Source of the DNA: Chloroflexota bacterium
GTDB taxonomy: Bacteria; Chloroflexota; Anaerolineae; UBA2200
Direction: 5' to 3'
Length of the DNA stretch: 64,000 nt
Assembly: GCA_014360905.1 (NCBI GenBank)
Contig: JACIWW010000001.1
Span: 62,001-126,000 of the forward strand
Under the pieces are notes generated by a model that was not told the origin of the DNA, ran no database searches, and worked only from the letters and a program-made list of their open reading frames with translations. A program made the position numbers and the translations under genes. Below, one piece after another: positions 17,085 through 35,882 of this stretch (positions are counted from its first letter, which is position 1; every line of letters starts with the position of its first letter).

Positions 17085-17462
17085 ATGACGCGAGCACTCT
17101 ATGAACGGCAAGCACGGTTTTTCAGTGCACTGGCTCACCCGATTAGGTTGAGCATCCTGGATATCTTATCTCGTGGTGAAGCCTGTGTCTGTCACCTATC
17201 AGCCATTCTACAACTGCGCCAGGCGTACATCTCGCAGCAGTTGGCTACTCTGAAAGAAGCTGGCTTGATTACCGACAGGAAAGAAGGATTGTACGTCTAC
17301 TATTCCCTCGCAGACGCAAGTGTTCCACATCTGCTGCAGGAAGCCCGACACTGTCTCGCACAGATTAGTGGCGATCACATCTTGCGCTGCTTTACACCCC
17401 CGAAGTATGACGAGAGCACCTGCACTTGCCCCGCCTGCCGTGCAAAGCGCTCTCCTCTGTAA
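17085..17462 (+). CDS. ArsR/SmtB-family metalloid-responsive repressor
   Basis: A 125-residue winged-helix repressor. The recognition region carries CVCHLSAILQLRQAYISQQL, where CVC is the alpha-3 metal/metalloid motif known from ArsR and SmtB-type sensors. The C-terminus adds CTCPACRAKR, a second Cys cluster. It starts at ATG 17085 with AAAGGA 7 nt upstream inside a palindrome. It heads the redox island, followed by a small membrane ORF and a thioredoxin-like gene. It probably represses this group until arsenic, another soft metal, or a thiol-reactive signal binds. Confidence 0.88.
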   Translation: MTRALYERQARFFSALAHPIRLSILDILSRGEACVCHLSAILQLRQAYISQQLATLKEAGLITDRKEGLYVYYSLADASVPHLLQEARHCLAQISGDHILRCFTPPKYDESTCTCPACRAKRSPL

Positions 17463-17506
17463 TCCATAACGTTTATCTCCTAGCCTTTATGTTGGATTGA
17501 AAGCAC

Positions 17507-17605
17507 ATGATGAACTACATTATTCCCTTTTTGACTCGCCTTGTCGAAACCTGCTTGCTCATTGCCATCGCCGTCATTGCGGCAAATGGACTACAACTGG
17601 ATTAG
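17507..17605 (+). CDS. Possible 32-residue single-span membrane peptide
   Basis: The frame ATG ATG AAC TAC..TTG GAT TAG encodes 32 residues with one hydrophobic helix (CLLIAIAVIAANG) after a short amphipathic start. The ribosome site is weak (GGATTGAAAG). It sits between an ArsR gene and a thioredoxin gene, where related loci often carry a permease; it could be a permease remnant or a genuine small protein. No family was recognised. Confidence 0.3.
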   Translation: MMNYIIPFLTRLVETCLLIAIAVIAANGLQLD

Positions 17606-17622
17606 GTAATAAGGAGAAAACC

Positions 17623-17871
17623 ATGCACATTATCATACTCGGACCTGGTTGCCCAAACTGCAAGAAATTGGAAGCTCTGACAAAGGAAGCAACAGCTGAG
17701 TTGGGCCTAGCCGACGTCACCTTTCAGAAAGTCAGCGATTTGATGGAGATCATGAAATACCCCATCCTACGCACGCCGGGGCTGGTGATCAATGGTAAGG
17801 TAGTCTGTAGCGGGCGCGTCCCAACAAAAGGAGAGATCAAAAGCTGGCTGAACACAGCTTCGAGCAACTAG
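17623..17871 (+). CDS. Small thioredoxin-like disulfide protein (Thioredoxin_3 type)
   Basis: An 82-residue protein. ATG 17623 has AAGGAG 6 nt upstream (17611-17616). The active site is GCPNCKK near residue 10, and the cis-Pro strand TPGLVINGKVVCSGR matches the small redox-active disulfide family often found with ArsR genes and permeases. Note an additional Cys in KVVCSGR. It is cytoplasmic and may reduce arsenate reductase or the CcdA-type carriers encoded downstream; those partners are inferred from location. Confidence 0.87.
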   Translation: MHIIILGPGCPNCKKLEALTKEATAELGLADVTFQKVSDLMEIMKYPILRTPGLVINGKVVCSGRVPTKGEIKSWLNTASSN

Positions 17872-17947
17872 CACCTGGATCCGCTCATGATGCGCAGAAG
17901 CTTGTTGTAAAGCCATCAGGGCACCAACTTGTGCGTGCTCCTCAGAT

Positions 17948-17976
17948 TTGACAAAAAGCCATTTCTGCGGTATAGT
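17948..17976 (+). promoter_or_regulatory. Strong sigma70-type promoter of the HdrA-like/ferredoxin operon
   Basis: TTGACA at 17948-17953, 17 nt spacer, TATAGT at 17971-17976. The last base of the -10 element is shared with the ArsR-type operator that follows. Confidence 0.75.
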
Positions 17977-17997
17977 ATATTCAGAAAACTGAATATA
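17976..17997 (+). promoter_or_regulatory. ArsR/SmtB-type operator (9-4-9 inverted repeat)
   Basis: TATATTCAG, AAAA, CTGAATATA form a perfect inverted repeat of the ATA-TTCA/TGAA-TAT type typical of ArsR/SmtB/CadC operators. It begins at the last base of the -10 element, so binding would block initiation of the downstream operon. Confidence 0.75.
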
Positions 17998-18121
17998 ATT
18001 GCACAAACACTTTGGCCCACTTTCAGCACAGACTAGCCAGGCAAAGGATACCTGGCTGGTTTGTACTGGATAAGCGAGTTAGGAAAACACAATATTACAA
18101 CATTGGAGGAGGCATCGCACT

Positions 18122-18493
18122 ATGTCTGAGAAACCAAGATTTGTCATGTGTATTTGCACTGGTGAGTGCCCCGGGTTTCAGAGCCTCAACCTGTGGCAAC
18201 TGATCAACTATGTCCGCAATGAACTGGATGTAGAGTATGCCATTGTCCATCCACAACTGTGCGTGGATGACGGCGACCGCTTCCTGACAGATTACATCAA
18301 GTCCAATAGCAAGTACATCATTGGCGCTTGCGATCCCAAGATGCAGCGCAAGATGTTCAAGGACGCTTTTGCTTCAGTGGGTGGCGACTTTGACAAGCAG
18401 GTGGTCTCCCTTGACCTGCGCAACATGTCCACAGAGGAGGCCATGAATAAGGTAGCAGAAGCGGTCAAGCAACTGAGCGAAGCTGCAGCTTAG
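18122..18493 (+). CDS. HdrA-N-like Cys protein (stand-alone)
   Basis: A 123-residue protein resembling the N-terminal segment of HdrA-type heterodisulfide reductase subunits: an MCICTGECPGF start (residues 9-19), an LCVDDG turn near residue 48, and a YIIGACDPKMQRKMF block that parallels the HdrA sequence around its ASCSPRMHEP motif. The flavin and ferredoxin domains of HdrA are absent. GGAGGAGG precedes the ATG by 9 nt. It is the first gene behind the strong operator-controlled promoter and is followed by a ferredoxin, so it probably serves as a thiol or Fe-S electron-transfer partner. Confidence 0.65.
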   Translation: MSEKPRFVMCICTGECPGFQSLNLWQLINYVRNELDVEYAIVHPQLCVDDGDRFLTDYIKSNSKYIIGACDPKMQRKMFKDAFASVGGDFDKQVVSLDLRNMSTEEAMNKVAEAVKQLSEAAA

Positions 18494-18529
18494 CTTCAGC
18501 ACCGACACTAATCTGCCCGGAGGCTATAG

Positions 18530-18805
18530 ATGAATCCGAGAGGAATCCCAAGAGAACAGATACCCTGGTATCCACGCGTTGACCTGGACCAGTGCATTGG
18601 CTGCCAGGAGTGTTTCAACTTCTGTGGAAATGGCGTGTACCAATGGGATGACGAAGGGAATCACCCCATTGTCGCCAATCCTTACAACTGTGTAGTGGGA
18701 TGTAGTGCCTGTGCTAATCTCTGCAGTGGCGATGCGATCTCCTTCCCAACGAAGGAGGAGATCAGGAAAGCCATCGCCGAGCTGATGGCAGTGCACTCGC
18801 AATAG
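18530..18805 (+). CDS. Two-cluster ferredoxin (paralog 1)
   Basis: A 91-residue ferredoxin. Motif 1 is CIGCQECFNFC; motif 2 is CVVGCSACANLC, a CxxxCxxCxxxC spacing rather than the usual CxxCxxCxxxCP. The start region GIPREQIPWYPRVDLDQ recurs in the ferredoxin at 21311. GGAGG lies 6 nt before ATG 18530. It should carry two 4Fe-4S clusters. It is cotranscribed with the HdrA-like gene and is one of three ferredoxins of the same type within 3 kb. Confidence 0.88.
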   Translation: MNPRGIPREQIPWYPRVDLDQCIGCQECFNFCGNGVYQWDDEGNHPIVANPYNCVVGCSACANLCSGDAISFPTKEEIRKAIAELMAVHSQ

Positions 18806-18932
18806 CGATGTGGGGTCTGACGTAGCTTCCCAGAGAGGAGGCAGCTCCAAAGCAACGCTGCTTGAGGCATGCTTCTAGTCTGTAGCCACCGTCAGGCCAC
18901 TGGCTGGCTCTTAGAGAACGTGAGGACAAACG

Positions 18933-19463
18933 GTGAAAAACCACACACGGGGGCTCGAACTGATCAAAGTTCTCGCCCACCCAGTGCGTGTGCAGATCCT
19001 ATGGGCGCTCGGCGCAGGTGAGCAGTACGTCTGCCATTTGATGACAAGCCTCAACAGACGCCAGGCGTACGTCTCACAACAATTGGCCTTCCTGCGCCAG
19101 AACAATCTCATCGTAGCAACTCGTGAGAGCCAGCACATCAGCTATCGCCTGCGGGACGAAGAGCTCGGAGAATTGCTGTCGAGACTGTTCGCACTGCACT
19201 GGTTGCACCTGATTGCTACGCCTGTCTGGTCATCCCGACGCCGTGGTGGTTATGCCCCTGCCCAAAGTGCACTGAACTCAGGATGCATGCCCACTTACCT
19301 GCACAACCATTTGGCACACGAGGCATGGTCGTACGAGCTGAAATCGCCGAATGCGATTGTTCTATTTGCTTGCGTATGTACCGACTGTCCACGGAGAATG
19401 TGGCGGTCTCGATGGATCCATCCTGTCCTTACCTGCAACGCTGGGCCTCCGCATTGCATGTGA
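18933..19463 (+). CDS. ArsR-family regulator (C-terminal part uncertain)
   Basis: GTG 18933 follows GAGG by 7 nt. Residues 1-90 form an ArsR winged helix (VLAHPVRVQILWALGAGEQ, then CHLMTSLNRRQAYVSQQLAFLR), closely related to the regulator at 17085; here the CVC motif is reduced to YVC. After about residue 95 the frame loses family resemblance, and an overlapping frame from about 19325 looks more protein-like. A frameshift or a separate overlapping gene is likely, so the true C-terminus is unsure. Confidence 0.65.
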   Translation: MKNHTRGLELIKVLAHPVRVQILWALGAGEQYVCHLMTSLNRRQAYVSQQLAFLRQNNLIVATRESQHISYRLRDEELGELLSRLFALHWLHLIATPVWSSRRRGGYAPAQSALNSGCMPTYLHNHLAHEAWSYELKSPNAIVLFACVCTDCPRRMWRSRWIHPVLTCNAGPPHCM

Positions 19464-19645
19464 TGCATGCCCCGTCATATGGACAGGAGGCGCAGGCGCA
19501 TCTGGAGTTGTGCCAGTCAGCCAGCGACTATCTATGCCAGCCCAGTTGCCGCGCGCCAGCTCTGGTGGTACAGGCTGCCTCGGCCATGGGGCAGCCTGCC
19601 AACCACGTTAGTGTGGGCATCCACTGCCTGATGGAGGCGGCTTAG
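19325..19645 (+). CDS. Possible Cys-rich protein overlapping the ArsR frame
   Basis: A frame of about 106 residues with coding-like codon use, rich in Cys (CDCSIC, CPYL, LCQPSC). It overlaps the end of the ArsR frame in another register. The family is not recognised. It may be the true continuation of the ArsR gene after a frameshift, acting as a metal-binding tail, or a separate gene with a weak start (GAGGC before ATG 19325). The open frame extends up to ATG 19283. Confidence 0.35.
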   Translation: MVVRAEIAECDCSICLRMYRLSTENVAVSMDPSCPYLQRWASALHVMHAPSYGQEAQAHLELCQSASDYLCQPSCRAPALVVQAASAMGQPANHVSVGIHCLMEAA

Positions 19646-19696
19646 TTCTGGCCATCCCTATAAGGAGCGAAAAGACATTGAAGAAGGGAGGCAGTC

Positions 19697-20005
19697 TTGG
19701 AAAAGAAAGTTAGACTTACTTCCGAGTGGTTGATCAACTATATCCGTGAGCACGGTGGAGTCCTCACGATCTCACGTGACATTGTGGTGGATTGATGAAC
19801 CGCATATAAGGGCCCATCCGGTCGGGTGGGCGAACCCGAGCGTCCAGAGGACTTTGCCCGGCTACAGGCGGATGATTTGACGATCTACATCTCCAAGGAC
19901 ATCTGGGAGAGCCTAAAACCGCGCCAATCGAAGCTATTAGTTGCCATTTCAAGCTATGGGCGCTTCTGGATATACTTGGAGCCAGCAGCAGGCAAGGGAG
20001 AATAA
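19697..20005 (+). CDS. CC/Se-type selenoprotein with tandem in-frame UGA (Sec-Sec)
   Basis: TTG 19697 has AAGGGAGG 5 nt upstream. The frame encodes LTSEWLINYIREHGGVLTIS, then two consecutive TGA codons (19793-19798, residues 33-34), then continues in the same frame as TAYKGPSGRVGEPERP and a further 55 residues to TAA 20005. A SECIS-like 8-bp hairpin with loop GGTC, the same loop as E. coli fdhF, begins 13 nt after the second TGA. With Sec at both codons this is a 102-residue protein in which a selenocysteine pair replaces a vicinal Cys-Cys. It resembles, from memory, the small CC/Se motif family of (seleno)proteins. Alternative: a pseudogene with a double stop. Confidence 0.75.
19812..19831 (+). 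promoter_or_regulatory. Candidate bacterial SECIS element for the tandem UGA
   Basis: Stem 19812-19819 (GCCCATCC) pairs with 19824-19831 (GGGTGGGC): seven Watson-Crick pairs and one G-U. The loop is GGTC (19820-19823). The loop starts 21 nt after the second TGA and 24 nt after the first, within the 16-37 nt range described for bacterial SECIS elements. Confidence 0.75.
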
Positions 20006-20077
20006 GCAATTCCCAGGTCTCGCTCTGGTTCGCTGGGATGTGGTCATTGGGATTTGTCCATTGATTAGGGGATTGTG

Positions 20078-20614
20078 ATGCTAATTGAACGGTATGAACT
20101 CAGATTGGAATCACCGCCATGTGATCCAGGCAGTGAGCGCTGGAGCGCTTTTGCACAGGTTGACACCGACATTGCAGAAGTGCTGCCCTATCTGAACGCC
20201 AAGCTGAGCGGCGCCATTTATGATCACAAGGCGCAGGTATTGACCTGGCGTATGGGCGGACGCGCTATCTCCATCCGTCCCCATGAGATCGCTGTGAGCA
20301 ACCTGCAGGATCGTGCCGAGGCTGAAGCGATGGTCAGACGCATGGTGGATTTGATCAACGAGACCTGGGAACAGCGGGAGCGCATTCAGCCTAGTCTGGT
20401 GAAGCGCGAACCACTCAAAGCGCTCGATGTCTATAAACTGCTGCCCGGGTCAAATTGCAAAGCCTGCGGGCAACCGACGTGTTTCACATTTGCTTTGAAA
20501 CTAGTGGCAGGACAGGCGGCAATATCCGCCTGTGCGCCGCTTTTTGAAGATGAATACCGTTCACAACGCACGCGGCTGCTGCAAATGCTCGAAGCCGCAG
20601 GAATCACAACTTAG
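20078..20614 (+). CDS. (Fe-S)-binding protein with CdhE-like 4Fe-4S motif (paralog 1)
   Basis: A 178-residue protein. ATG 20078 has AGGGG 6 nt upstream. The C-terminal third has NCKACGQPTCFTFAL then ISACAPL: a CxxCxxxxC...C motif like the 4Fe-4S domain of the corrinoid Fe-S protein CdhE/AcsC and RnfB. The N-terminal two thirds (DIAEVLPYLNAKLSGAIY, WRMGGRAISIRP) match the gene at 28273. It probably passes electrons to or from the neighbouring ferredoxins; the partner is unknown. It sits directly after the tandem-UGA gene. Confidence 0.75.
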   Translation: MLIERYELRLESPPCDPGSERWSAFAQVDTDIAEVLPYLNAKLSGAIYDHKAQVLTWRMGGRAISIRPHEIAVSNLQDRAEAEAMVRRMVDLINETWEQRERIQPSLVKREPLKALDVYKLLPGSNCKACGQPTCFTFALKLVAGQAAISACAPLFEDEYRSQRTRLLQMLEAAGITT

Positions 20615-20630
20615 CATAAGAGCAGAGGAG

Positions 20631-21134
20631 ATGCTTGACAAAAAGGAACTGAGTTATCGCCAGATCATTGTGGGACGTTTTCCGACCGGCATGGTAGGGC
20701 TGGATGAACTTTTCGAGTCGCTGTATCAGGCGGATAAGCTGCCCAATGAAGAACTTGGAGCAGAACTGGTCGCAGGGGCACGGAAGCATAATTATATCCC
20801 TGCATCTGCAGAGCGAGACTTTGCAGCAGCGTTGCTGCGGGAGTACCGCAGCTATTACGAACAAAAGCGTACTGGCCAGGCCCCAACAACCAAGCGCGGT
20901 GCGCCACGTCCGCAAGTGCCATGGTTTCCTATGATAGATGAAACGCTCTGCGATGGCTGCGACAAATGCCTGCAGTTCTGCAGCAGTGGGGTATACGCCA
21001 AGCGGGACAGTGGGGTGGTGTATGTCGTGCAGCCTTTGAATTGCGTTGTAGGCTGCGATGCCTGTGCACGCCTTTGCCCGCACCACGCCATTACCTTTCC
21101 GCCGCGCTCCATCCTGCGCACGATGGGGCGTTAG
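20631..21134 (+). CDS. Ferredoxin with N-terminal helical domain (paralog 2)
   Basis: A 167-residue protein starting at ATG 20631 (MLDKKELSYRQIIVGRF); a longer frame from 20532 lies inside the previous gene. Residues 1-80 are a helical domain of unknown type (GMVGLDELFESLYQ). Residues about 92-165 are a two-cluster ferredoxin: CDGCDKCLQFC and CVVGCDACARLC, again with the CxxxCxxCxxxC second motif. A PRPQVPWFPMIDE lead-in matches the other two ferredoxins of this island. Confidence 0.8.
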   Translation: MLDKKELSYRQIIVGRFPTGMVGLDELFESLYQADKLPNEELGAELVAGARKHNYIPASAERDFAAALLREYRSYYEQKRTGQAPTTKRGAPRPQVPWFPMIDETLCDGCDKCLQFCSSGVYAKRDSGVVYVVQPLNCVVGCDACARLCPHHAITFPPRSILRTMGR

Positions 21135-21310
21135 CTCTTTACCAAACCATAACTGGAGTGAGCAGCAATTTGACAGAGTGCTCGCCAGGCTCAATACATG
21201 CAGAGATAGGTTACATAGTGCGACATGCACGTGGATCATTATTAGGACAGCGAAGGAGGTATTGAAAACGCACGGGAGTACCAAAACAGCATCTGGGTAT
21301 ACCACGCACG

Positions 21311-21556
21311 TTGATTCCGTGGTATCCAATCATTGATGAAGAGCGTTGCATCGGATGCATGAGTTGTGTCAAAGCTTGTAAGCACAACGTATTTGACATG
21401 GACACGGTTCGGCCCATTGTGGCTAATCCCTACGAATGTGTGGTGTTTTGCCAAAGTTGTAAGTACGTGTGCGAGGCGGGCGCTATTTCCCATCCGCCCA
21501 AAGAGGCAGTGAAAATAGTTATCAAAGAACTGCGCAAGCAGTATCCGCCGAGTTAA
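21311..21556 (+). CDS. Two-cluster ferredoxin (paralog 3)
   Basis: An 81-residue ferredoxin with [11 protein letters not shown] and [12 protein letters not shown], paralogous to those at 18530 and 20631. The only in-frame start shown is TTG 21311, with no ribosome site next to it. Homology to paralog 1 (GIPR.xIPWYP) continues upstream of it as far as about 21281, after an in-frame TGA at 21263. The sequence AAGGAGG-TA-TTGAAAA at 21253-21268 suggests that a one-base excess in the A run may have broken the true start. The start is therefore unsure; the ferredoxin call is firm. Confidence 0.8.
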
Positions 21557-21598
21557 ATGGAATGGTGCGTTGGGAACTCTGCTATAGGGGAAAAGGAT

Positions 21599-22024
21599 AT
21601 GAAGCCGAAGGTTTTGTTTCTCTGTACACACAATTCAGCACGCAGCCAGATAGCTGAAGCTTTCCTGAAAAAATACGCTGGAGACCGTTTTGAGGTGTAC
21701 AGCGCTGGGCTGGAGCCTACCGCGATCCACCCATACGCCAAACAAGTAATGGAAGAAATCGGTATCTCTATGGACGGACATTATGCCAAAAGCGTGCAGC
21801 AATGGTTGGGGCAGGTGCATTTTTCTTACTTGATCACGGTGTGCGCAAAGGCAGAAGAAAGGTGTCCTATTTTCCCAGGTATGGGTCAGCGCTTATCCTG
21901 GCCATTTGACGATCCGGCTGCTTTTGAAGGAAGCGAAGAAGAGAAGCTGAACAAATTCCGGCAAGTCCGGGATCAGATCGAACAACGCATCAGAGAATGG
22001 TTGGCAGACAAGCATAAGCCATGA
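21599..22024 (+). CDS. arsC: Arsenate reductase, low-molecular-weight phosphatase type
   Basis: A 141-residue protein starting at ATG 21599 (GGGGAAAAGG upstream). The P-loop CTHNSARS (residues 8-15) is the nucleophilic Cys plus Arg of the LMW-PTP fold. The pair [11 protein letters not shown] (residues about 80-90) is the resolving Cys pair diagnostic of thioredoxin-coupled ArsC rather than a tyrosine phosphatase. It reduces arsenate to arsenite in the cytoplasm. Electrons could come from the small thioredoxin at 17623. No arsenite efflux pump (ArsB/Acr3) is in the window. Confidence 0.92.
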
Positions 22025-22082
22025 ACATTGCTACAGTTGAGGTCAGCAATATACAAAATATCCTCAAAAATGGAGCTAGACA

Positions 22083-23708
22083 ATGCATAACTGGGTATAC
22101 ATCCTGCGTAATAAAATAGAAACTGTAGGGCTCGTCTTGCTGCTGCTCATCTTAGTTGCTGAGATGGAAAGTGGCGTTCATGCCGATGGCGTGGTGTATC
22201 TGTTCTATTTCTACGACCCCAATTGTCCGGTGTGTCAGGACATTCATGAGAGTGTCCTGGAGCCATTGCTTGCTGCTTACGAGGGACGCGTTGTCGCTCA
22301 TGAACTCAATATGGCTGACGCCGCGAACTTTGAGTTCTTGCTTGACCTGGAGAAGCGCTTTGGCGTCACCAATCCGGGCATTCCCGAGATCTTTGTCGGC
22401 GAAGACGTCCTGATTGGCCCAGAGGAAATCAGCACCCGCCTGAAAGAGCGTGTGGACTACTACCTAGCGCAGGGCGGCGTGGAACTCCCTGTCGAACCAC
22501 CGGCTGCAGCCCCCACCCCCACGCCAGAGTGCACTGAATGCACTGCCATCCATGAAGCACAGCGCACCGCAATGGCTGCCATGCAGACACCCTCACCGCA
22601 ATGGACGGCTACTCCCGTATCAGGCGAAAGACCACCCATTTATGTCGCTTGGTTCTACCAACCTGGCTGCGACCTCTGTGAACGGAAGGAGCATGATCTG
22701 CAGTACATCCTAAACAAATATCCGCAAGTAAAAGTGCAGCGCTTTAACGTGAAGGAAGAGATGGCACTGAACCAGTACCTGTGTCTCAAGGCCAAAGTAC
22801 CGGAGGAGCGACACCTCACCGCTCCAGCATTCTTTGTCGCGGATTCAGCCTTAGTCGGAACAGAGATCACCGGATCCAGCATGGAGGAGTTGATCCGCCC
22901 TTACCTCGAAACAGGAGCACCAGAACCTTGGACAGGCTATGAAGCGCAGAAAGAAGTCGTTGAAAAGACCATCTTGGAACGCTTCCGTTCGCTGGGCCTG
23001 TGGACTGTGATCGGAGCGGGACTGCTAGATGGCCTGAACCCCTGTGCTTTTGCTACAATGATCTTCCTCGTTTCCTACCTCTCGGTGCGCAAGCGACAAG
23101 GGCGCGAGATCATCGCCACCGGCGCCGCATTCACAATAGGGGTATTTTTCGCCTACCTCGGGGTAGGATTGGGCATGCTCAAGTTTCTCACCTCGCTGCC
23201 GGTGCTAAGTACAATGGGCAAGTGGATCTACGGCTTCACACTGGTGCTCTGTCTGGGCCTGGCTTGGGGTAGCTTCAGCGATTACCGCAAAGCCAAGCAA
23301 GGACAACTGGAAGACATGAGTCTAAAGTTACCCGATCGGATGCGTGGTTGGATACGCTACCTAATCCGCGAGGGTTCTCGGGCGCGGAATTACATAGCGG
23401 CCTCTTTGGTGCTGGGTTTTATTGTCTCCATTGTCGAGCTGGCTTGCACCGGACAAGTGTATCTACCCACGATCATTTTCGTGTTGGGTCTGCCGGAATG
23501 GCGTGCCAGAGCGGTTTCCGCGCTGCTTACCTACAACTTGATGTTCATCACACCTTTGATCTTCGTTTTCTTGCTCGTCTATTTCGGAACGACTTCTCAA
23601 CAACTCACGCGCTGGATGATGCGACGAGCCGCAGCAGTCAAGCTAGGCACTGCAGCGCTCTTCTTGCTGCTGGCGGGATGGTTGGGCTACAGCATCGCTG
23701 CGTTATAA
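22083..23708 (+). CDS. Two thioredoxin domains fused to a CcdA/DsbD-like membrane domain
   Basis: A 541-residue fusion. After an N-terminal hydrophobic segment (residues 13-35) comes a thioredoxin-like domain with DPNCPVCQD, then a Thr/Pro linker containing ECTEC, a second thioredoxin-like domain with QPGCDLCER (about residue 200), and from about residue 310 six or more membrane segments with the conserved pair DGLNPCAFAT and ELACTGQVYLPT, as in CcdA/DsbD/ScsB carriers. It should move reducing equivalents across the membrane to extracytoplasmic thioredoxin domains. ATG 22083 has GGAG 7 nt upstream. Its paralog is at 26073. Confidence 0.87.
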   Translation: MHNWVYILRNKIETVGLVLLLLILVAEMESGVHADGVVYLFYFYDPNCPVCQDIHESVLEPLLAAYEGRVVAHELNMADAANFEFLLDLEKRFGVTNPGIPEIFVGEDVLIGPEEISTRLKERVDYYLAQGGVELPVEPPAAAPTPTPECTECTAIHEAQRTAMAAMQTPSPQWTATPVSGERPPIYVAWFYQPGCDLCERKEHDLQYILNKYPQVKVQRFNVKEEMALNQYLCLKAKVPEERHLTAPAFFVADSALVGTEITGSSMEELIRPYLETGAPEPWTGYEAQKEVVEKTILERFRSLGLWTVIGAGLLDGLNPCAFATMIFLVSYLSVRKRQGREIIATGAAFTIGVFFAYLGVGLGMLKFLTSLPVLSTMGKWIYGFTLVLCLGLAWGSFSDYRKAKQGQLEDMSLKLPDRMRGWIRYLIREGSRARNYIAASLVLGFIVSIVELACTGQVYLPTIIFVLGLPEWRARAVSALLTYNLMFITPLIFVFLLVYFGTTSQQLTRWMMRRAAAVKLGTAALFLLLAGWLGYSIAAL

Positions 23709-23751
23709 TTCTGTACAGAAGGAAAGGGGAAATCTCATAAAGGTACACACA

Positions 23752-24339
23752 TTGACTCTGCTGCTATTGGCAGGAGTGCTCTTGCTAGGCTGTGGGGCAT
23801 GTAGCAGCCAGGCAACGCCGGCCGCCGTATCCAAGCCCACAGAAGGCGTGGCCATGGCAAGCGCTTCTCCAACACCTGAGGAAATTATCCAGGTTACCGT
23901 CGTTGAGCCGGTCAGCCAAGTCATTCGCAATGACACCTACTACTTCGATAACTGCAGTGGCACAGAGGAACGGCGCCAAGCTTTGAGCACGGTTGCCCAA
24001 GTGCAGAAAAGCCTCACTCTAGGGGCCGAAGCTAAAGCAATGGAGAGCGGCCAAGGGACCGCCATATCGGAAGAGTGCCGTGCTAAACTGACGCTTGAGA
24101 TTGAGAAGGCGTATCAGGATAGATTGGCTGCTATCCAAGCCGATCTCGCGCAGGAGGAAATGGTGGCGGGAGCGTACTCGCGCTTCAACTATACTATCAT
24201 CTGGGAGGAACAACGATTTAGTTCCACCGTATCCCTTACACTCGATGGACAGTCTTATACTATACCCTATACCCTGACCCTGTTTGTGCCAAGCCTGGGA
24301 AGCGCTAAATCAATCCCTTGCTCTGGTTGAATGCGCTAA
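23752..24339 (+). CDS. Candidate seleno-lipoprotein ending CSGU-MR
   Basis: TTG 23752 follows AAAGG by 8 nt; the frame is also open upstream through IKVHT, which would give a better signal peptide from a non-standard ATA. A lipobox LLLGC and a Thr/Pro linker come first, then a soluble domain of unknown family with FDNCSGTEE and SEEC. The frame meets TGA at 24328, giving SIPCSG-Sec-Met-Arg-stop (TAA 24337-24339), so the Sec would form a CxxU redox pair. A hairpin follows at SECIS distance. It lies between CcdA and thioredoxin genes and is presumably anchored outside the membrane. If the TGA is a true stop the protein simply ends CSG. Confidence 0.65.
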
Positions 24340-24345
24340 CAAAAC

Positions 24346-24363: not shown

Positions 24364-24389
24364 ATAAAAGAACAAGGAAACAATTGTCT

Positions 24390-24905
24390 ATGCGTTCATC
24401 ACTCTATCGCTGGCTGGTCGGGTTGCTCGTGCTTGCTGCGGTTGTAGCCATTTTGGCACTAAAAACTCGTGGCACAACAAGCAATATTTCCAACTTGCCT
24501 GCTAAAGAGATGGCGTCTGCGACCACATCACTGACACCAACGCCATCTCCTCTTAGTGAGGAGGCAGACCCATTTCCGAGCAAAGCAGATCCAGCTACCC
24601 AGATCGAATGGGTGCTGCGCCACAAGAAGCCAGCCATGATCCTTTTCCACAGCAACCTTTGCCGGCCCTGTCTAATGATGGAAGCCTTGGTGCAGATGGT
24701 GCGACGCGACTACGAGCCCACTGTCGTGTTCATCGAAATCGTCATTGACGATCCGGCCAACGCTGACCTGGTCCGCGCCGCGCGCATTGGCAGCATCCCA
24801 GCTTCCTTATTCGTGGACCGCTCCGGACAAGTCAAACGGGTTGTTGGCTTAATGAAGCAACAGGACCTGCGTGCTGAACTGGCTAGACTAATGAGTGAGG
24901 AATGA
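24390..24905 (+). CDS. Membrane-anchored thioredoxin-like protein
   Basis: A 171-residue protein starting at ATG 24390. One N-terminal membrane helix (WLVGLLVLAAVVAILAL) is followed by a Thr/Pro/Ser linker and a thioredoxin fold with active site NLCRPCLMM (about residues 90-98) and cis-Pro loop GSIPASLFVDRSGQ. The domain faces outside. It is likely a thiol oxidoreductase receiving electrons from the flanking CcdA-type carriers and passing them to the neighbouring lipoproteins. Confidence 0.85.
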   Translation: MRSSLYRWLVGLLVLAAVVAILALKTRGTTSNISNLPAKEMASATTSLTPTPSPLSEEADPFPSKADPATQIEWVLRHKKPAMILFHSNLCRPCLMMEALVQMVRRDYEPTVVFIEIVIDDPANADLVRAARIGSIPASLFVDRSGQVKRVVGLMKQQDLRAELARLMSEE

Positions 24906-24915
24906 GGCGGTAACC

Positions 24916-26010
24916 ATGCGCAGATACAGATGCTGTTTCCAAATTTCCATAGCAAAGGCTGCCGTCTTCCTGCTGCTGGCAATACTGCTTATCGGCTGCT
25001 CGGGGGACACTGTAAACCAACCTGCACCGACCATTATCCCGGTGGCGCCCAGCAGGGCATTTCCGACGGCTACGAAACCCGTGTCGCCCACAACAGTTCC
25101 ACCTACGCCGACAAAGGCTATACTGTTGCCCCCTACCCCAACGCCACCGTTGCAAGGCGTAGCGAGGCTTACTATCCTATATACCAACGATACACGGGGC
25201 TATGTAGACCCCTGCGGCTGAGGAGTTCCCATGGGTGGAGTAGCCCGGCGGGCTACCGCAATCGAGTATCTTCGCGAACAAGCAGGCGAACACGTGCTCG
25301 TGTTGGATGCAGGAAACACGCTTTTGGGGGAAAGATTGGCTTTTGAAACCAAGGGGCGCATTATTGTGGAAGCGATGAATGCCATGGGATATGACGCCCT
25401 CACTGTGGGCACCTTGGAATTGAGCCAGGGAATCCAAGTGCTCCAGGAGCGTGCAAAGGAGGCAAATTTTGCCATCCTCTCTTGCAACATCCTCGATACG
25501 CAGAGCGAGAAGCCTCTCTTCACGCCCTATATCATCGTGCAACGAGACGGCTTGCGCTATGGCATTATCGGTGTTAGTGAACCGGAGATAGTCAATTTGG
25601 CAGACATCGCCCAAACAGCTAAGGCCCTGGATCCCATACAGAGCCTGCAGAGATATTTGCCTGAGGTGCAAGAGCACAGCGATGTGATCATCGTGCTCTC
25701 GCATCTAGGCCTAGAAGGAGACAAGGCTCTAGCTCAAGCCATACCAGACATTGACGTGATTGTGGGAGGAAGGTCAAGGAGGCTTCTCCGAGCGCCTGAA
25801 ATGGTGGGCTCGACGATCATTGTGCAGGCAGGATATGATGGAGAATGGCTGGGCAAGTTGGGTGTAACAGTTACAGCTGAGGGCACGCTTGTTGACCCTT
25901 GGGTGGATATTATACCTCTTGGACCAGATATTGCCGACCATCCGGAGTTGGCAGCTCTTGTCGCACGCTATAACCAGCTCTACCCGCCGCCAACGCCCGG
26001 TGCCCATTGA
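24916..26010 (+). CDS. Metallophosphatase-like lipoprotein with CGU motif (candidate selenoprotein)
   Basis: The frame has a lipobox (LLIGC), a Thr/Pro linker, then LTILYTNDTRGYVDPCG, TGA (25219-25221), GVPMGGVARRATAIEYL and about 250 further residues in the same frame. Homologs of this 5'-nucleotidase-like type carry CGC here, so TGA most likely encodes Sec (residue 102 of 364). A 7-bp hairpin follows at SECIS distance. Metal ligands of true metallophosphatases are altered: TNDTRG for NDxHG, VGTLE for GNHE, GGRSRR for GHSH, so phosphatase activity is doubtful and a thiol/selenol role is more likely. Without Sec it would be two broken ORFs. Confidence 0.78.
25240..25256 (+). promoter_or_regulatory. 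Candidate SECIS hairpin in the CGU lipoprotein gene
   Basis: GTAGCCC (25240-25246) pairs perfectly with GGGCTAC (25250-25256) around the loop GGC. The loop begins 25 nt after TGA 25219-25221. It is inside the coding frame, as bacterial SECIS elements are. Confidence 0.7.
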
Positions 26011-26072
26011 GCGAGATAGCCTCCTATTTCACTTGCTCGCCAGAGCAATGGCTTAGACAGGGTGTAGAGATA

Positions 26073-27296
26073 ATGTGGCATAAGAAATACACAGTCCTAT
26101 ACCACATAGCTGCCACTGCAGGGATACTGCTTGTCGTTGCTCTGCTGTGGAATAGCGGCATCGCAATGCACCTGCGTTTCCTCAAAGCTGGCGCTGCCCA
26201 AAGTTCGGCGGAATCTCCCCCCATATACCTGGTATACTTCTACCAACCGGGTTGTGACCTATGCGCAAAGGCAGATCGCGATGTCGAATACGTCGCGAGC
26301 AGGTATCCTCAGGTGAAAGTGCGCCGGCTGAACATCCGTGAAGAGGCTGCCTTTAACCAGTATCTCTGTCTCCGCGCTGGCGTGCCAGAAGAGAGGCATC
26401 TTGTCGCTCCCGCCGTTTTTGTTGGCGATGACTACCTAGTTGGTCTGAGCCAAATCGGCGCTCGCCCCCTCGAAGAACTGATCAAGCCGTATCTCGCTTC
26501 AGGTTCACCGGAGCTCTGGGCCGACTGGGAAGCAGGCAAACAAGTTGCCGAGGAGGCGATTGTGCAGCGTTTTCGTTCTCTCGGACTGCTGACCGTAGTT
26601 GGCGCCGGGCTGTTGGATGGCATTAACCCCTGTGCCTTTGCCACCATGATTTTCCTCATCTCCTACCTTTCGGTACGTAAGCGACAGGGACGTGAGTTGC
26701 TGGCTACCGGAGCTGCTTTTGCTACCGGCGTCTTCCTGGCCTATCTGGCCATGGGGTTGGGGCTTCTGCAATTTCTTACTGCACTGCCGATGCTTGATGT
26801 CATTGGCAAATGGGTTTACGGCCTCACCATGCTGCTGTGTCTGGGCTTGGCTTGGGGAAGTTTTGCCGATTACCGCAAGGCACGAGAAGGACGTCTGGAG
26901 GATATGAGTTTGAAGCTGCCAGACTACCTACGCGGATGGTCGAGACGCTTGATTCGCGAAGGATCGCGAGCAAGGAACTTTGTGTTGGCCTCGCTGGTTT
27001 TGGGAGCAGCGGTATCTATCGTGGAGCTAGCTTGCACCGGCCAGGTTTACCTGCCTACGATCATTTTCGTGTTGGGCTTGAAAGAGTGGCGGGCACGAGC
27101 AGGTCTGGCTTTGCTCATGTACAACGTGATGTTCATCCTACCACTGGTCATCGTCTTCCTGCTGGTGTACTTGGGCACTACTTCCCAGCAACTGTTGCAT
27201 TGGATGAACCGCAGGGCTGCTGCGGTCAAATTGGGGACAGCCGTCCTGTTTGCGTTGCTGGCCGTCTGGCTGGGCTACAGCATCATTGTTTTCTAG
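26073..27296 (+). CDS. Thioredoxin domain fused to CcdA/DsbD-like membrane domain
   Basis: A 407-residue paralog of the second half of the gene at 22083. ATG 26073 is chosen; an in-frame TTG at 26007 has no ribosome site. One N-terminal membrane helix is followed by a thioredoxin-like domain with QPGCDLCAK (about residue 58) and a polytopic carrier domain with DGINPCAFAT and ELACTGQVYLPT, the Cys pair that shuttles electrons through the bilayer. The first thioredoxin domain of the paralog is missing. It delivers reducing power outward, probably to the adjacent lipoproteins. Confidence 0.87.
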   Translation: MWHKKYTVLYHIAATAGILLVVALLWNSGIAMHLRFLKAGAAQSSAESPPIYLVYFYQPGCDLCAKADRDVEYVASRYPQVKVRRLNIREEAAFNQYLCLRAGVPEERHLVAPAVFVGDDYLVGLSQIGARPLEELIKPYLASGSPELWADWEAGKQVAEEAIVQRFRSLGLLTVVGAGLLDGINPCAFATMIFLISYLSVRKRQGRELLATGAAFATGVFLAYLAMGLGLLQFLTALPMLDVIGKWVYGLTMLLCLGLAWGSFADYRKAREGRLEDMSLKLPDYLRGWSRRLIREGSRARNFVLASLVLGAAVSIVELACTGQVYLPTIIFVLGLKEWRARAGLALLMYNVMFILPLVIVFLLVYLGTTSQQLLHWMNRRAAAVKLGTAVLFALLAVWLGYSIIVF

Positions 27297-27345
27297 GAAA
27301 CCAGCGGTGATTGTGACGGACTCGCTATAAGGAGAAAACACGGCC

Positions 27346-28017
27346 ATGGAATGGGATTTTTCGGCAGTAGCCAATGTCTCGTTGTGGGCTTATCTGATTG
27401 TCTTTACCCGGGGGGTGTTGACTAGCATTGGGCCATGCAACATGGCCATGATCCCGCTAGTTATCGCCTTCGTCGCAGGGCAGAAGCAGATTAGCCGTTG
27501 GCGCAGTCTGACCCTCTCTGGAGCGTTCGCCCTGGGGCTGGCGATTACCTTCACAGCTCTGGGAGTGCTCGCCGCCCTGGTGGGGCGGATTATTGGTGCA
27601 GGTGGCCTGTGGTACTATGTCATGGCAGCGGTGTGCATTATCATGGGCTTGCAGTGGATGGGAGTCGTTTCGCTTCCCCTGCCAGACTGGGGTGCCGGAC
27701 AGCGCGAAAAGATCAAGCGACGTGGTATGATGGGAGCATTACTGCTCGGCCTGGTCTCAGGCTTCGTTGCCTCTGGCTGCGCCATGCCTGCGCTGATTGC
27801 TATTCTCACGCTTGTCATGTCCAAGGGTGCGCTAGCCTACGGCGCGAGCCTGCTCCTGATGTACGGAGCTGGGCGTGGTGTGCCTATCGTCTTGCTCGGC
27901 ACCTTTGCGGGTTGGACGAAACTCATGCCTAAGAGGTCGGCATGGACAGCTCGGATTGAGCAATTGAGTGGGGCATTCATGGTCCTAATCGGATTGTATT
28001 TCCTATGGAGTGCTTGA
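27346..28017 (+). CDS. CcdA-like membrane electron carrier
   Basis: A 223-residue protein with six predicted membrane segments and the CcdA Cys pair, SIGPCNMAMIP (about residue 31) and VASGCAMPAL (about residue 144). It lacks fused thioredoxin domains, unlike the two neighbours. AAGGAG precedes ATG 27346 by 11 nt. CcdA carries electrons from cytoplasmic thioredoxin to outward-facing partners. It is the third such carrier within 6 kb, which suggests several extracytoplasmic acceptors. Confidence 0.88.
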   Translation: MEWDFSAVANVSLWAYLIVFTRGVLTSIGPCNMAMIPLVIAFVAGQKQISRWRSLTLSGAFALGLAITFTALGVLAALVGRIIGAGGLWYYVMAAVCIIMGLQWMGVVSLPLPDWGAGQREKIKRRGMMGALLLGLVSGFVASGCAMPALIAILTLVMSKGALAYGASLLLMYGAGRGVPIVLLGTFAGWTKLMPKRSAWTARIEQLSGAFMVLIGLYFLWSA

Positions 28018-28045
28018 CGACCAAAGCACTAGAAAGTGGATGGTG

Positions 28046-28255
28046 ATGAAGAAAGCATTGGTAGTCCCTTTGAGCGACCAGGAGCTTCTTGAGCTGTGTC
28101 GCGTTCTGCTCGACCGTGATGAGAGGGGCGCCCTGCAATTCTTGGACGAACATCTCAAGCACCCAGCAAACGAGGCGCTAGCAGGCGGTTGAAAGGTGCT
28201 CATCGAGGTGCCTGGGTCAGGCATCAAAGAGGTGCCCGGCAAACGCCTGTTCTGA
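28046..28255 (+). CDS. Small protein with in-frame UGA (possible selenoprotein)
   Basis: The frame from ATG 28046 reads KKALVVPLSDQELLELCRVL and on through HPANEALAGG, then TGA (28190-28192, residue 49), then KVLIEVPGSGIKEVPGKRLF and a second TGA at 28253. Coding-like sequence continues through the first TGA, and a 7-bp hairpin with loop GGGTC lies at SECIS distance. If Sec is inserted the protein has 69 residues; otherwise 48. No family is recognised. It sits between CcdA and the second Fe-S protein gene. The start could also be ATG 28040. Confidence 0.5.
28207..28225 (+). promoter_or_regulatory. Candidate SECIS hairpin after UGA 28190
   Basis: GGTGCCT (28207-28213) pairs with AGGCATC (28219-28225), including one G-U pair, around loop GGGTC. 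The loop begins 21 nt after the TGA. Confidence 0.5.
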
Positions 28256-28272
28256 AATCCCATGAGACGATC

Positions 28273-28833: not shown

Positions 28834-28879
28834 CCATTGCACAGTATGACTGGATTTGACAGCATGATTAGAATAAAAT

Positions 28880-28902
28880 AAGGCAAAATGGTGTTTTGCC
28901 TT
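28880..28902 (+). repeat. 9-bp inverted repeat upstream of the zinc-ribbon gene
   Basis: AAGGCAAAA and TTTTGCCTT flank a TGGTG loop, 31 nt before ATG 28933 and after a TTGACA at about 28855. It could be an operator or a leader hairpin; there is no T-run immediately after it. Confidence 0.45.
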
Positions 28903-28932
28903 ACTTCCACCAAATCGTTAAGGAAGTACAGA

Positions 28933-29145
28933 ATGCCAACCTATGAGTTTGAATGTGGTGATTGTGGCGAGCGCTTCGAAATCCGCGCCTCATTTCGGGA
29001 GAAAGAGAAGGACTTGAGCCCCAAATGTCCGCGCTGCGGCAGCGACAACACCGGCCAAGTCTTCGGCGACTTGGTCTTCTTTGCCAAATCAGGTGAGGTA
29101 GCTTTTACCAAACCGTCAGGCGGCAGTTGTTGCTCGGCACGCTGA
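28933..29145 (+). CDS. FmdB-type zinc-ribbon protein
   Basis: A 70-residue protein starting MPTYEFECGDCGERFE at ATG 28933 with AAGGAAG 7 nt upstream. Two CxxC knuckles (CGDC and CPRC) form the zinc ribbon of the FmdB/CxxC family. The C-terminus ends GGSCCSAR, carrying a vicinal Cys pair that recurs elsewhere in the island. Proposed roles of the family are regulatory; here it precedes the MIP18 and YlbF genes, and a metalloid-sensing role is possible but only inferred. Confidence 0.83.
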   Translation: MPTYEFECGDCGERFEIRASFREKEKDLSPKCPRCGSDNTGQVFGDLVFFAKSGEVAFTKPSGGSCCSAR

Positions 29146-29161
29146 AGCAGGAGGTGCGCTA

Positions 29162-29521
29162 ATGCCCGGAAGAGGCCCAACTATGTGGCGCATGGCTAGT
29201 TGCTGCGGTGACAACCAAGCGTTCCAAATGCATATTGAGGAGAAAAACATGATAACTGAACAAATGATTCTAGAAGCATTACGGCCAGTTGTGGACCCGG
29301 AGATCGGCATGAGCGTGGTAGACCTGGGCATGATCCGCGAGATTGTGCTGGACAAGGAGGGAAAGGTAGAGATCAAGATGGTTTTAACCACGCCCTTCTG
29401 CCCTCTTGCCAGTATGCTCACGGCACAGGTGGAGCAAGCTACAGCCGCTGTGCCGGGGGTGAAAGAAGCTAAAGTAACACTGTTGGATGAGCCTTGGAAT
29501 CCGGCATGGATGAAACACTGA
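29162..29521 (+). CDS. MIP18/SufT-type (DUF59) Fe-S assembly protein with N-terminal CC extension
   Basis: Residues 30-119 are a MIP18/PaaD-like domain (EALRPVVDPEIGMSVVDLG, then TTPFCPLASML), a family involved in Fe-S cluster maturation. Two starts are credible: ATG 29162, with an excellent AGGAGGTG 5 nt upstream, gives a 29-residue leader containing MASCCGD; ATG 29249, with GAGGAG upstream, gives the standard 90-residue protein. I annotate the longer form because its ribosome site is stronger. It may serve the many Fe-S proteins encoded here. Confidence 0.82.
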   Translation: MPGRGPTMWRMASCCGDNQAFQMHIEEKNMITEQMILEALRPVVDPEIGMSVVDLGMIREIVLDKEGKVEIKMVLTTPFCPLASMLTAQVEQATAAVPGVKEAKVTLLDEPWNPAWMKH

Positions 29522-29609
29522 GAGCATCTCGGCACAAATCGAGGCGACAAGCTGTGCAAAGGATATCCCGAACGGATTGGCAGTCGAGGTGAGGGAAAGG
29601 AGAGCGAGA

Positions 29610-30014
29610 ATGACCAATCAACCACGTAACGAAGGGGTGATAACCGCCGCTGCCGTAGCTAAAGAGGCAAAAGAGTTCCGCGACTTTACCAATGCCCTGA
29701 TGTACACGCCTGAGTATAGAGCCTTTGACCTGGCCCGCCAACAACTGCGCCAGGATGCGGTGGCCCTCCGGGCAATACAGGATTTCCAAGAGAAGCAACA
29801 ATATCTGCAAATGATGCAAATGTGGGGTACAATCAGCCAAAACGACCAGGATGAACTGCAGCGTCTGTACGAGAGCATGATGCAGATACCCGCTGTGCAG
29901 GATTATGTTCATTGCCAGGAAGAGTTGGCGAAAATGTTTCGCCAAGTCGCACGGCTCATTAGTGAATGCATCGGCACAGAATTCCCACCCCAGCAGTCAA
30001 GCTGCTGCGGATGA
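29610..30014 (+). CDS. YlbF/YmcA-family protein with C-terminal CCG
   Basis: A 134-residue helical protein starting at ATG 29610 with AAAGGAG upstream. It matches the Com_YlbF family (EFRDFTNALMYTPEYRAFD, then LQMMQMWGTISQNDQDEL). In Bacillus the YlbF-YmcA-YaaT complex binds Fe-S clusters and affects RNA decay and development. The extended C-terminus ends QSSCCG, similar to a Cys-containing tail used for Fe-S binding in YlbF and YmcA. The next gene is a paralog. Confidence 0.78.
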   Translation: MTNQPRNEGVITAAAVAKEAKEFRDFTNALMYTPEYRAFDLARQQLRQDAVALRAIQDFQEKQQYLQMMQMWGTISQNDQDELQRLYESMMQIPAVQDYVHCQEELAKMFRQVARLISECIGTEFPPQQSSCCG

Positions 30015-30027
30015 CAGGAGATAGAGC

Positions 30028-30405
30028 ATGCTAGATGCAAACTTAGAAAAGACCGTGAGAGAATTCGCAGCCTGGCTAGTGCAAACACCTCCATTAGCAG
30101 AACTACGCAAAGCGCAAGGGCAGCTGGAGGCCGATGCTGAAGCTCAGCGCCTGCTGACAGAATGGGACCGGAAGCAACAAGAACTGCTACAGCGACAGCG
30201 GGATGGCCAGGCTATTTCGATGGCCGAAATAACGCCTCTGCGCCAAGTGCAAAATCGAATTCGCGCTCATCCCATGGTCATCACCTATAGCGAGATGCGC
30301 AAGCAGGCACAATCCTATCTGACCGATCTCTGTGCAGAAATCAGTGAAGTGCTACGAGTGGATTGGGAGACCTTGAGCCGAGCAATCGGTGAGGAAACGC
30401 CCTAG
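30028..30405 (+). CDS. YlbF/YmcA-family protein (second copy)
   Basis: A 125-residue helical protein with the same fold (REFAAWLVQTPPLAELRKAQ, then DRKQQELLQRQRDG). AGGAG precedes ATG 30028 and the gene starts 13 nt after its paralog. It probably forms a heteromer with that protein, as YlbF and YmcA do. It keeps only a single Cys (DLCAEIS) and lacks the CC tail. Confidence 0.78.
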   Translation: MLDANLEKTVREFAAWLVQTPPLAELRKAQGQLEADAEAQRLLTEWDRKQQELLQRQRDGQAISMAEITPLRQVQNRIRAHPMVITYSEMRKQAQSYLTDLCAEISEVLRVDWETLSRAIGEETP

Positions 30406-30446
30406 TTCTGCAATGCAGAGGAGGAGAGAGCAATGCATGACATGAA

Positions 30447-30740
30447 ATGAAGATCAAAGCCAGTGGGCACATCTTGGAGCGGAATGTCCTGGGACAGCTT
30501 TACGATGCACTAGAGGGCAAGGATTGCGATATAACCGACATCGAAATCTTTGCTCCCACGCTTAAAGGTGGCTGGAGGGAGCAGTGCTCTTCGGTGATCA
30601 TCTTCAAATTAATGCCTGAAATACAGGCTATAGACAAAACAGGCGTAGAAGACTGCTACGGTCTCATCCTGGACATCTTTCGGCAGCAAGGCTGTCGGCT
30701 GATTTATCGCAAAGAGATTGCTTCTGGCCTACAGGCTTAA
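30447..30740 (+). CDS. Conserved-looking protein of unknown function
   Basis: A 97-residue protein (MKIKASGHILERNVLGQLYD...). ATG 30447 overlaps the stop of a 5-codon open frame (ATG 30433..TGA, MHDMK) that owns the strong GAGGAGAGAG ribosome site, so it may be translated by coupling, or the two frames were one before an indel. Three Cys residues occur at CSSV, DCYG and GCRL positions. No family recognised. It is the last gene of the redox island. Confidence 0.55.
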   Translation: MKIKASGHILERNVLGQLYDALEGKDCDITDIEIFAPTLKGGWREQCSSVIIFKLMPEIQAIDKTGVEDCYGLILDIFRQQGCRLIYRKEIASGLQA

Positions 30741-35849: not shown

Positions 35850-35882
35850 AGCGCAGTGCCCACCCCGCAGAGAGGAGGAAAG

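Follow-up and report, generated by a model that had tools for sequence, protein, structure and literature searches.

Selenoprotein Genes of the Island

The subject of this work is an island of about 20 genes at about 17.1–31.7 kb of a 64,000-nucleotide stretch of Chloroflexota DNA (class Anaerolineae; assembly GCA_014360905.1, contig JACIWW010000001.1, positions 62,001–126,000), hereafter called the window. The island encodes two ArsR-type regulators, ArsC, an ArsE thioredoxin, three CcdA-type carriers, three ferredoxins, two CdhE-like iron–sulfur (Fe-S) proteins and three candidate selenoproteins. The source genome comprises 2.83 Mb in 49 contigs and is 96% complete. The three genes with selenocysteine (Sec) codons and the hairpins downstream of these codons, at distances given in nucleotides (nt), are as follows.

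19697–20005, forward strand: CC/Se-family selenoprotein with two adjacent Sec residues (Sec-Sec, UU); TGATGA at 19793–19798
19812–19831, forward strand: CC/Se hairpin shared by the two UGA codons; stem of 8 bp, loop GGUC, 21 nt beyond the second UGA
24916–26010, forward strand: UshA-like lipoprotein, Cys-Gly-Sec; TGA at 25219
25240–25256, forward strand: UshA hairpin; 7-bp stem, 3-nt loop GGC, 25 nt after the UGA
28046–28255, forward strand: GGU selenoprotein of no known family; TGA at 28190
28208–28224, forward strand: GGU hairpin; 6-bp stem, loop GGGTC, 21 nt after the UGA

Decoding of the UGA Codons

A preliminary description of this DNA had proposed a selenoprotein-rich redox island with ArsR genes, to be abandoned if selB and tRNA-Sec were absent, if homologs ended at the TGA codons or if the gene set was conserved in no other genome. 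Both genes are present in the host, the homologs continue past the TGA codons and parts of the set recur elsewhere. The genome carries the full Sec machinery: tRNA-Sec (anticodon tca), SelB (348 bits), SelA (584 bits) and SelD (377 bits), the selD gene itself having an in-frame TGA. Of 120 relatives, 101 have a SelB above its cut-off, as do 46 of the 52 that carry any of the three genes; since most relatives have SelB anyway, co-occurrence with it does not discriminate. The six SelB-negative carriers are fragmented or incomplete metagenome-assembled genomes.

To locate Sec codons, 265 TGA codons with frames open up- and downstream (16.9–31.8 kb, both strands) were translated and compared with the relatives' loci. 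Four were singled out, at 19793, 19796, 25219 and 28190, which gives three selenoprotein genes with four Sec codons. The TGA aligns with a TGA or Cys codon in 85 loci for each of the first two (duplicates included), in 46 for the third and in 32 for the fourth. The earlier count of at least four in-frame TGA codons thus becomes exactly four conserved ones; the distance from UGA to the first G of the loop is 24/21, 25 and 21 nt, in agreement with the 21–25 nt given there. Most of the remaining matches that span a TGA are shadow frames of real genes; the only one in a plausible gene frame, at 21263 ahead of ferredoxin 3, was rejected after examination by hand.

A bacterial Sec insertion sequence is a stem-loop whose short apical loop begins with G, about 16–37 nt after the UGA, and all three hairpins have this form, with a spacing of 21–25 nt. 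In alignments of distinct sequences from relatives, 94% (CC/Se, 19 sequences), 95% (UshA, 24) and 96% (GGU, 25) of cells are paired, against 26–55% for hairpins slid along the alignment, and none of 500 shuffles reaches the covariation score of any of the three. Compensatory changes occur in the CC/Se hairpin (CG to AU in nine sequences), the GGU hairpin (CG to UA in ten) and the UshA hairpin (CG to UA in eight, GC to CG in six). One CC/Se sequence (L086) and six divergent or gapped GGU sequences were omitted from these alignments; by inspection, several of those omitted have a hairpin at the same distance. Folding of single sequences does not decide the matter (z = −1.2, −0.5 and −2.8 for CC/Se, UshA and GGU). 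As the hairpins lie within coding sequence, protein constraint contributes to their conservation, yet third-position changes come in pairs. Taken together, these comparisons strongly support decoding of the four UGA codons as Sec.

The Sec-Sec Protein

The protein encoded at 19697–20005 belongs to the CC/Se family by a narrow margin, scoring 40.2 bits with NF041239 against a cut-off of 40, and 29.5 bits in the genomic search. A protein search that did not select for TGA recovered 20 homologs in 19 of 298 relatives, from at least 14 genera, and all have the two adjacent TGA codons. The hairpin CCCATC(C/A)GGTC(G/T)GATGGG is near-identical in 19 of the 20; L086 lacks both the hairpin and the PSG segment. 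The combined pattern of TGATGA and hairpin matches once in the window and not at all in shuffles; over 84,980 species it gave 54 stretches, 46 of them real and eight due to chance. Its carriers include Anaerolineae, Thermoflexales, Candidatus Cloacimonadota, Calditrichales and Bacterium UASB270, and among Firmicutes Fervidicola, Thermosediminibacter, Thermovorax, Geosporobacter, Anaerosolibacter and Alkaliphilus. The conserved PSG residues are not independent evidence, because the pattern scan selects for the hairpin that encodes them. Distant homologs from other classes of the phylum have CC (L182, L183) or CU (L184) at the site, and over 400 genomes of the phylum the NF041239 profile gave just four weak matches, CC and CU forms among them.

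A structure predicted from 39 sequences (mean confidence, pLDDT, 86) has an IscA/HesB-like arrangement. The ten best Foldseek rows are all of IscA/SufA/HesB/DsrR type, as are nine of the ten best VIA-align rows; these similarities are weak, with Z no higher than 4.9 and TM about 0.4–0.5, and the CC/Se profile matched none of the sequences of solved structures. By inspection of the predicted fold, the Sec-Sec pair sits at the position of the SGCSG loop of IscA, and the C-terminal CxC of IscA is absent. No signal peptide was seen on inspection.

In PMC13188914, the CC/Se motif family is listed with the motif CxxU and one Sec. The window protein is of this same family and differs from the form listed by two adjacent Sec residues, conserved over several phyla. 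No description of adjacent Sec codons was found in the literature searched, and their occurrence across several phyla raises the question of how SelB can use a single hairpin for two successive codons.

The GGU Protein

The GGU protein has 69 residues and, by inspection, no signal peptide. Neither alone nor as a set of 31 homologs did it match NCBIfam 20.0 or Pfam, and it does not appear among the about 119 families in the accessible part of PMC13188914. Because neither NCBIfam nor Pfam covers the family, its genes have probably been overlooked or annotated as truncated. Among 396 relatives searched, the gene is present in 31 genomes of 27 genera, all 31 with the TGA, and in-frame similarity extends beyond it as (E/A)GG-U-K-V(L/M)IEVPGAGI, the true stop following after 11–26 residues. 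Searching the phylum with a profile added a homolog from another class (L217) that lacks the TGA, has Cys at the site (GHCK) and lies in a locus with Acr3. Three further homologs (L219, L220, L221) lack the motif and lie near Acr3, ArsE, ArsR or CdhE-like genes.

The UshA-like Lipoprotein

The lipoprotein scores 198 bits (197.7) with NF041198, under the cut-off of 275, and is a shorter relative of that UshA-like selenoprotein family, which is already listed (PMC13188914; PMC2398784). It shares with the family the PCGU motif and homology over 240 residues; it differs in length (about 370 against 519 residues), in lacking the C-terminal domain and in having mostly lost the metal ligands. The TGA recurs at the same site in dozens of relatives, and 26 fetched copies read CGU.

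The metallophosphatase motifs of UshA and SoxB (NDxHG, GNH(D/E), GGHxH) are not present in the window protein: in the alignment, NDMHG, GNHDFD and GGHTH of an intact homolog (L044) correspond to NDTRG, GTLELS and GGRSR. Other Sec forms of UshA have likewise mostly lost these ligands. From this loss the Sec branch would no longer be a metallophosphatase, and motif comparison makes it likely that the fold has been turned into a redox or metalloid protein. The preliminary description had spoken of selenol/thiol lipoproteins in the plural; only the UshA-like protein is a selenol lipoprotein, whereas the CC/Se and GGU proteins, by inspection, have no signal peptide.

A second UshA-like gene with one in-frame TGA lies elsewhere in the same genome (G000:C19:9722-10657). 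In the genomes of one family, the UshA selenoprotein gene is immediately followed by that for YqeB, a molybdenum cofactor protein that depends on selenium (L058, 7767–8687; L060, 14061–14870, 384 bits in L060).

Other Genes of the Island

Island proteins were annotated by profile searches with NCBIfam (20.0) and Pfam; unless otherwise indicated, the assignments below are profile matches. L-numbers denote relatives' loci; G001 is a genome of the same genus as the host, and L047 is its island.

17062–17077, no strand: perfect 16-bp palindrome TCCTTTATATAAAGGA, possible operator, just upstream of ArsR1
17085–17462, forward strand: ArsR1, ArsR/SmtB-type regulator with a CVC motif (EACVCHL); NF033788, 91 bits; homologs recur in CC/Se loci
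17507–17605, forward strand: possible remnant of a PF03773-type permease (SO_0444/SaoE-like); 32-residue peptide resembling the permease N-terminus
17623–17871, forward strand: MTH895/ArsE-family thioredoxin-like protein, CPNC; TIGR00412, 96 bits against a cut-off of 62
18122–18493, forward strand: small protein like the HdrA N-terminal domain; weak match to HdrA2 positions 14–84 (E = 0.004); G001 counterpart 94% identical
18530–18805, forward strand: ferredoxin 1, two 4Fe-4S sites
18933–19463, forward strand: ArsR2, 68 bits; C-terminal half frameshifted relative to G001
20075–20614, forward strand: CdhE-like protein 1, a TBP-like half domain and the 4Fe-4S domain of the corrinoid iron–sulfur protein (profile and structure prediction)
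20625–21134, forward strand: ferredoxin 2, N-terminally extended
21290–21556, forward strand: ferredoxin 3, start uncertain
21599–22024, forward strand: ArsC, thioredoxin-coupled arsenate reductase type; TIGR02691, 129 bits, under the cut-off of 174
22083–23708, forward strand: two thioredoxin-like domains fused to a CcdA-type membrane domain
23752–24330, forward strand: lipoprotein of no assigned family, conserved only within the host's family
24390–24905, forward strand: membrane-anchored thioredoxin, CRPC
26073–27296, forward strand: second thioredoxin–CcdA fusion
27346–28017, forward strand: DsbD/CcdA-type transmembrane carrier; DsbD, 88 bits
28270–28833, forward strand: CdhE-like protein 2, conserved neighbour of the GGU gene
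28930–29145, forward strand: FmdB-type zinc ribbon, C-terminal SCCSAR
29249–29521, forward strand: MIP18/SUF-type protein
29577–30405, forward strand: two YlbF-like proteins, the first with an SSCCG end; related to the halo-CC-star family HcsL
30966–31733, forward strand: XdhC-family protein, nearest to an AOR maturation factor family, under its cut-off

The profile scans bear out in substance the gene list given earlier (two ArsR, ArsC, three CcdA/DsbD-type carriers, three ferredoxins, two CdhE-motif proteins), except that we counted five thioredoxin-type domains instead of four. In G001 and other loci a permease gene lies between ArsR1 and ArsE; it is missing at 17463–17620 of the window. 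In the ArsR2 region (18933–19645), a 5-nt insertion relative to G001 (L047) shifts the cysteine-rich C-terminal half into another frame. Of the operator-like palindromes reported for both regulators, that of ArsR1 is perfect and only a poor one lies upstream of ArsR2. A repeat such as that of ArsR1 is not very rare by chance, and G001 has a different palindrome at the corresponding site.

FmdB selenoproteins are known from ocean metagenomes; for the FmdB zinc ribbon at 28930–29145, the TGA scan did not support readthrough. Outside the island, inspection of open reading frames showed another ArsR-like gene followed by a glutaredoxin-like gene (46388–47092).

The three ferredoxins are HgcB/PorD-like, and both CdhE-like proteins carry the 4Fe-4S motif of the acetyl-CoA decarbonylase gamma subunit. 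In the structure predicted for CdhE-like protein 1 (pLDDT 91), residues 113–174 resemble the N-terminal 4Fe-4S domain of the corrinoid iron–sulfur protein (2ycl, Z 9.7, 57 residues, 42% identity); matches to this domain cover 54–57 residues at about 42–46% identity. Residues 5–100 are predicted to form a half fold like that of the TATA-binding protein (TBP; Z 11). The cluster of the corrinoid protein passes electrons for reductive activation, and by this analogy we infer that the CdhE-like proteins may act as low-potential electron donors.

Genomic Neighbourhoods and the Association with Arsenic

Neighbourhoods were compared for 46 CC/Se loci of up to 8 kb, 29 GGU loci of up to 3.2 kb and 32 control loci, which are shorter (4 kb) and come partly from the UshA search. 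Among the CC/Se loci, 14 carry Acr3, ArsA, ArsD or ArsC, 18 ArsR, 15 CdhE-like genes, 12 ArsE and 9 the permease; CdhE-like genes accompany 19 of the GGU loci. Acr3 was observed in 10/46 CC/Se loci against an expectation of about 0.03, and in 6/29 GGU loci against about 0.01, the expectation being derived from about 35 acr3 copies in 100 relatives. Relatedness at the genus level inflates these counts somewhat, and the matches span several phyla. None of the 32 control loci has a match to ars genes, ArsR, CdhE-like genes or AOR.

In Geosporobacter (L174) the order is CdhE, ArsE, UU protein, ArsR, ArsD, ArsA, ArsA, permease. Most of the island recurs in G001 in unchanged order, with the permease added. 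The gene set is thus a modular neighbourhood, not one fixed operon, as only G001, of the same genus, has most of it. Overall, the association makes the arsenic link of these selenoproteins and their Fe-S partners well supported. The preliminary description had named arsenic, selenium, mercury and sulfur species side by side as targets; the neighbours Acr3, ArsA/ArsD and ArsC favour arsenic and do not support the four evenly.

In thermophilic Firmicutes the Sec-Sec gene also has genes for tungsten AOR and ferredoxin beside it, and in Anaerolineae one that is W_rSAM-maturase-like; loci with AOR or maturase neighbours include L127, L139, L153, L163, L176 and others.

Comparison with Known Systems

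One close likeness is to anaerobic ars operons (ArsR, Acr3 or ArsA/ArsD, ArsC, ArsE). Homologs of the island genes lie among these genes, and the window itself has ArsR, ArsE and ArsC, the last under its equivalog cut-off. The island differs by adding three selenoproteins, CdhE-like Fe-S proteins, ferredoxins and CcdA carriers. Compared with an ars operon of the Acr3/ArsAB type, it has no arsenite efflux gene, Acr3 being found in other loci.

The Sox system comprises SoxR, SoxV, SoxW and SoxB, and the island resembles it in its ArsR-type regulator, CcdA carrier, thioredoxin and partner of UshA/SoxB fold. It differs in that the SoxB score is 129 against a cut-off of 550 and the metal ligands are lost; no match to SoxXA or SoxYZ was found among the scanned proteins.

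Two operons described in PMC13188914, the three-selenoprotein operon (Tso) and the selenocysteine-assisted organometal operon (SAO), also bring several selenoprotein genes together. Tso likewise has an ArsR/SmtB-type regulator and a DsbD-like protein, and the SAO permease SaoE is related, under its cut-off, to the permease of the relatives. The island belongs to neither: TsoR scored 39.7 against 115 and TsoB 82 against 805, with no match to TsoA or TsoC, and among the island proteins there was no match to SaoC, SaoB, SaoT (or SaoL) and no Sao cut-off was reached. Mercury methylation by HgcAB was rejected too, the HgcB-like ferredoxins scoring 31–33 bits against 99, with no match to HgcA.

The earlier statement that the gene set is undescribed as a unit needs dividing. 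The CC/Se and UshA-like families are already listed (PMC13188914), whereas the present analysis adds the pair of adjacent Sec residues, the GGU family and the setting among arsenic genes. In the literature searched we found no description of the pair, of the GGU family or of a selenoprotein set in ars operons; parts of the setting may be described in work on selenoprotein neighbourhoods.

Proposed Model

We regard the island as probably, though by no means surely, an anaerobic arsenic-response module in which selenols replace part of the usual thiol chemistry by way of a ferredoxin-fed thiol/selenol relay. As(III) would release ArsR1 from DNA, and reduced ferredoxins together with the CdhE-like 4Fe-4S proteins would supply low-potential electrons in the cytoplasm. 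There the Sec-Sec protein, whose two Sec residues would take the position of the conserved cysteine of IscA, may, like the GGU protein, bind As(III) between vicinal selenols; alternatively, they may keep ArsC and ArsE reduced. The CcdA-type carriers would move reductant across the membrane to outward-facing thioredoxin domains, and these would reduce the Cys-Gly-Sec site of the UshA-like lipoprotein, presumably a former metallophosphatase and now a redox or metalloid-binding protein.

Several observations weigh against this model. In the window the permease is missing and ArsR2 is frameshifted, and the acr3-like gene of the host is divided between two overlapping frames (G000:C22:26509-27454). 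The palindromes are unconvincing as operators and not conserved in sequence. UshA-like genes in other genomes are mostly alone. A tungsten AOR or radical-SAM maturase gene is present in 17/46 CC/Se loci, 11 of them with neither ars genes nor ArsR in the 8 kb fetched and six with such genes, and a further 13/46 have neither ars/ArsR nor AOR/maturase; the 11 loci mean that arsenic is not the only setting. The resemblance of the CC/Se protein to the IscA fold is weak (Z below 5, no sequence match). Finally, ArsR control, electron flow across the membrane, the electron path and the order of transfer are steps that we infer.

Alternative Explanations

The AOR setting is unexplained by the arsenic model and gives its main rival, the maturation of tungsten or molybdenum enzymes, in which the Sec-Sec IscA-like protein, a radical SAM protein and XdhC would mature an AOR-type enzyme through sulfur or selenium insertion or as an Fe-S carrier, with ars genes nearby because As(III) poisons such enzymes. 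The IscA/HesB-like predicted fold fits this, as do a W_rSAM_matur-like gene in 11/46 and AOR in 7/46 CC/Se loci, an AOR-maturation-type XdhC both in the window and, in L191 and L204, next to the GGU gene, and, by inspection, a large subunit like that of molybdenum hydroxylases at 35856–38114. We consider it unlikely all the same: in Geosporobacter, Anaerosolibacter, Alkaliphilus, Cloacimonadota and Calditrichales there are loci that carry ars genes without AOR within 8 kb, and by family clustering the closest island (G001, L047) has XdhC with no AOR or radical SAM gene within 20 kb.

The target could be another thiophilic species (antimonite, mercury, selenite or polysulfide), the ars genes being a general metalloid kit. 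The ArsR, ArsA and Acr3 families also act on antimony, which agrees with this proposal, the permease is nearest to the SO_0444 Cu/Zn and SaoE efflux families, and the ferredoxins are HgcB-like. The recurrence of Acr3, ArsD and ArsC beside the selenoproteins and the lack of HgcA or MerB matches among the 20 island proteins scanned make it improbable.

A general outward repair of disulfides and selenenyl bonds, unrelated to arsenic, would have CcdA, the thioredoxins and UshA keep extracellular proteins reduced as a DsbD-like system. The third CcdA carrier is indeed DsbD-like, the two CcdA fusions have outward thioredoxin domains and the UshA selenoprotein is often away from ars genes; we nevertheless judge this decidedly improbable, as ArsR, CdhE-like, Trx-CcdA and UshA genes stand consecutively in three genomes of another family (L058–L060) and a further UshA gene (G031) lies about 0.2 kb from Acr3.

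That some UGA codons are ordinary stops with coincidental similarity downstream is scarcely credible, since, for all the shortness of the GGU extension (11–26 residues) and the unremarkable single-sequence folding of the CC/Se and UshA hairpins, the in-frame protein is conserved past the UGA, 31/31 UGA codons share one column, a distant homolog has Cys, paired positions change in compensation and the hairpin keeps a fixed distance.

Implications

Within the arsenic model, we tentatively suggest, and hold to be doubtful rather than probable, that the vicinal diselenol encoded by two adjacent UGA codons and one hairpin serves anaerobic arsenic resistance as a centre dedicated to binding As(III) or reducing As, in concert with the GGU protein and a 4Fe-4S protein of low potential. 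The Sec-Sec gene occurs in bacteria that can be cultured (Geosporobacter, Anaerosolibacter, Alkaliphilus, Thermosediminibacter, Fervidicola), which makes tests feasible, and the small set of proteins described here is a testable link between selenocysteine and arsenic in anaerobes. The data suggest that the arsenic handling of anaerobes would use selenium chemistry not described for arsenic operons; if such a diselenol centre exists, the arsenic operons of strict anaerobes would have an unrecognised selenium-based branch.

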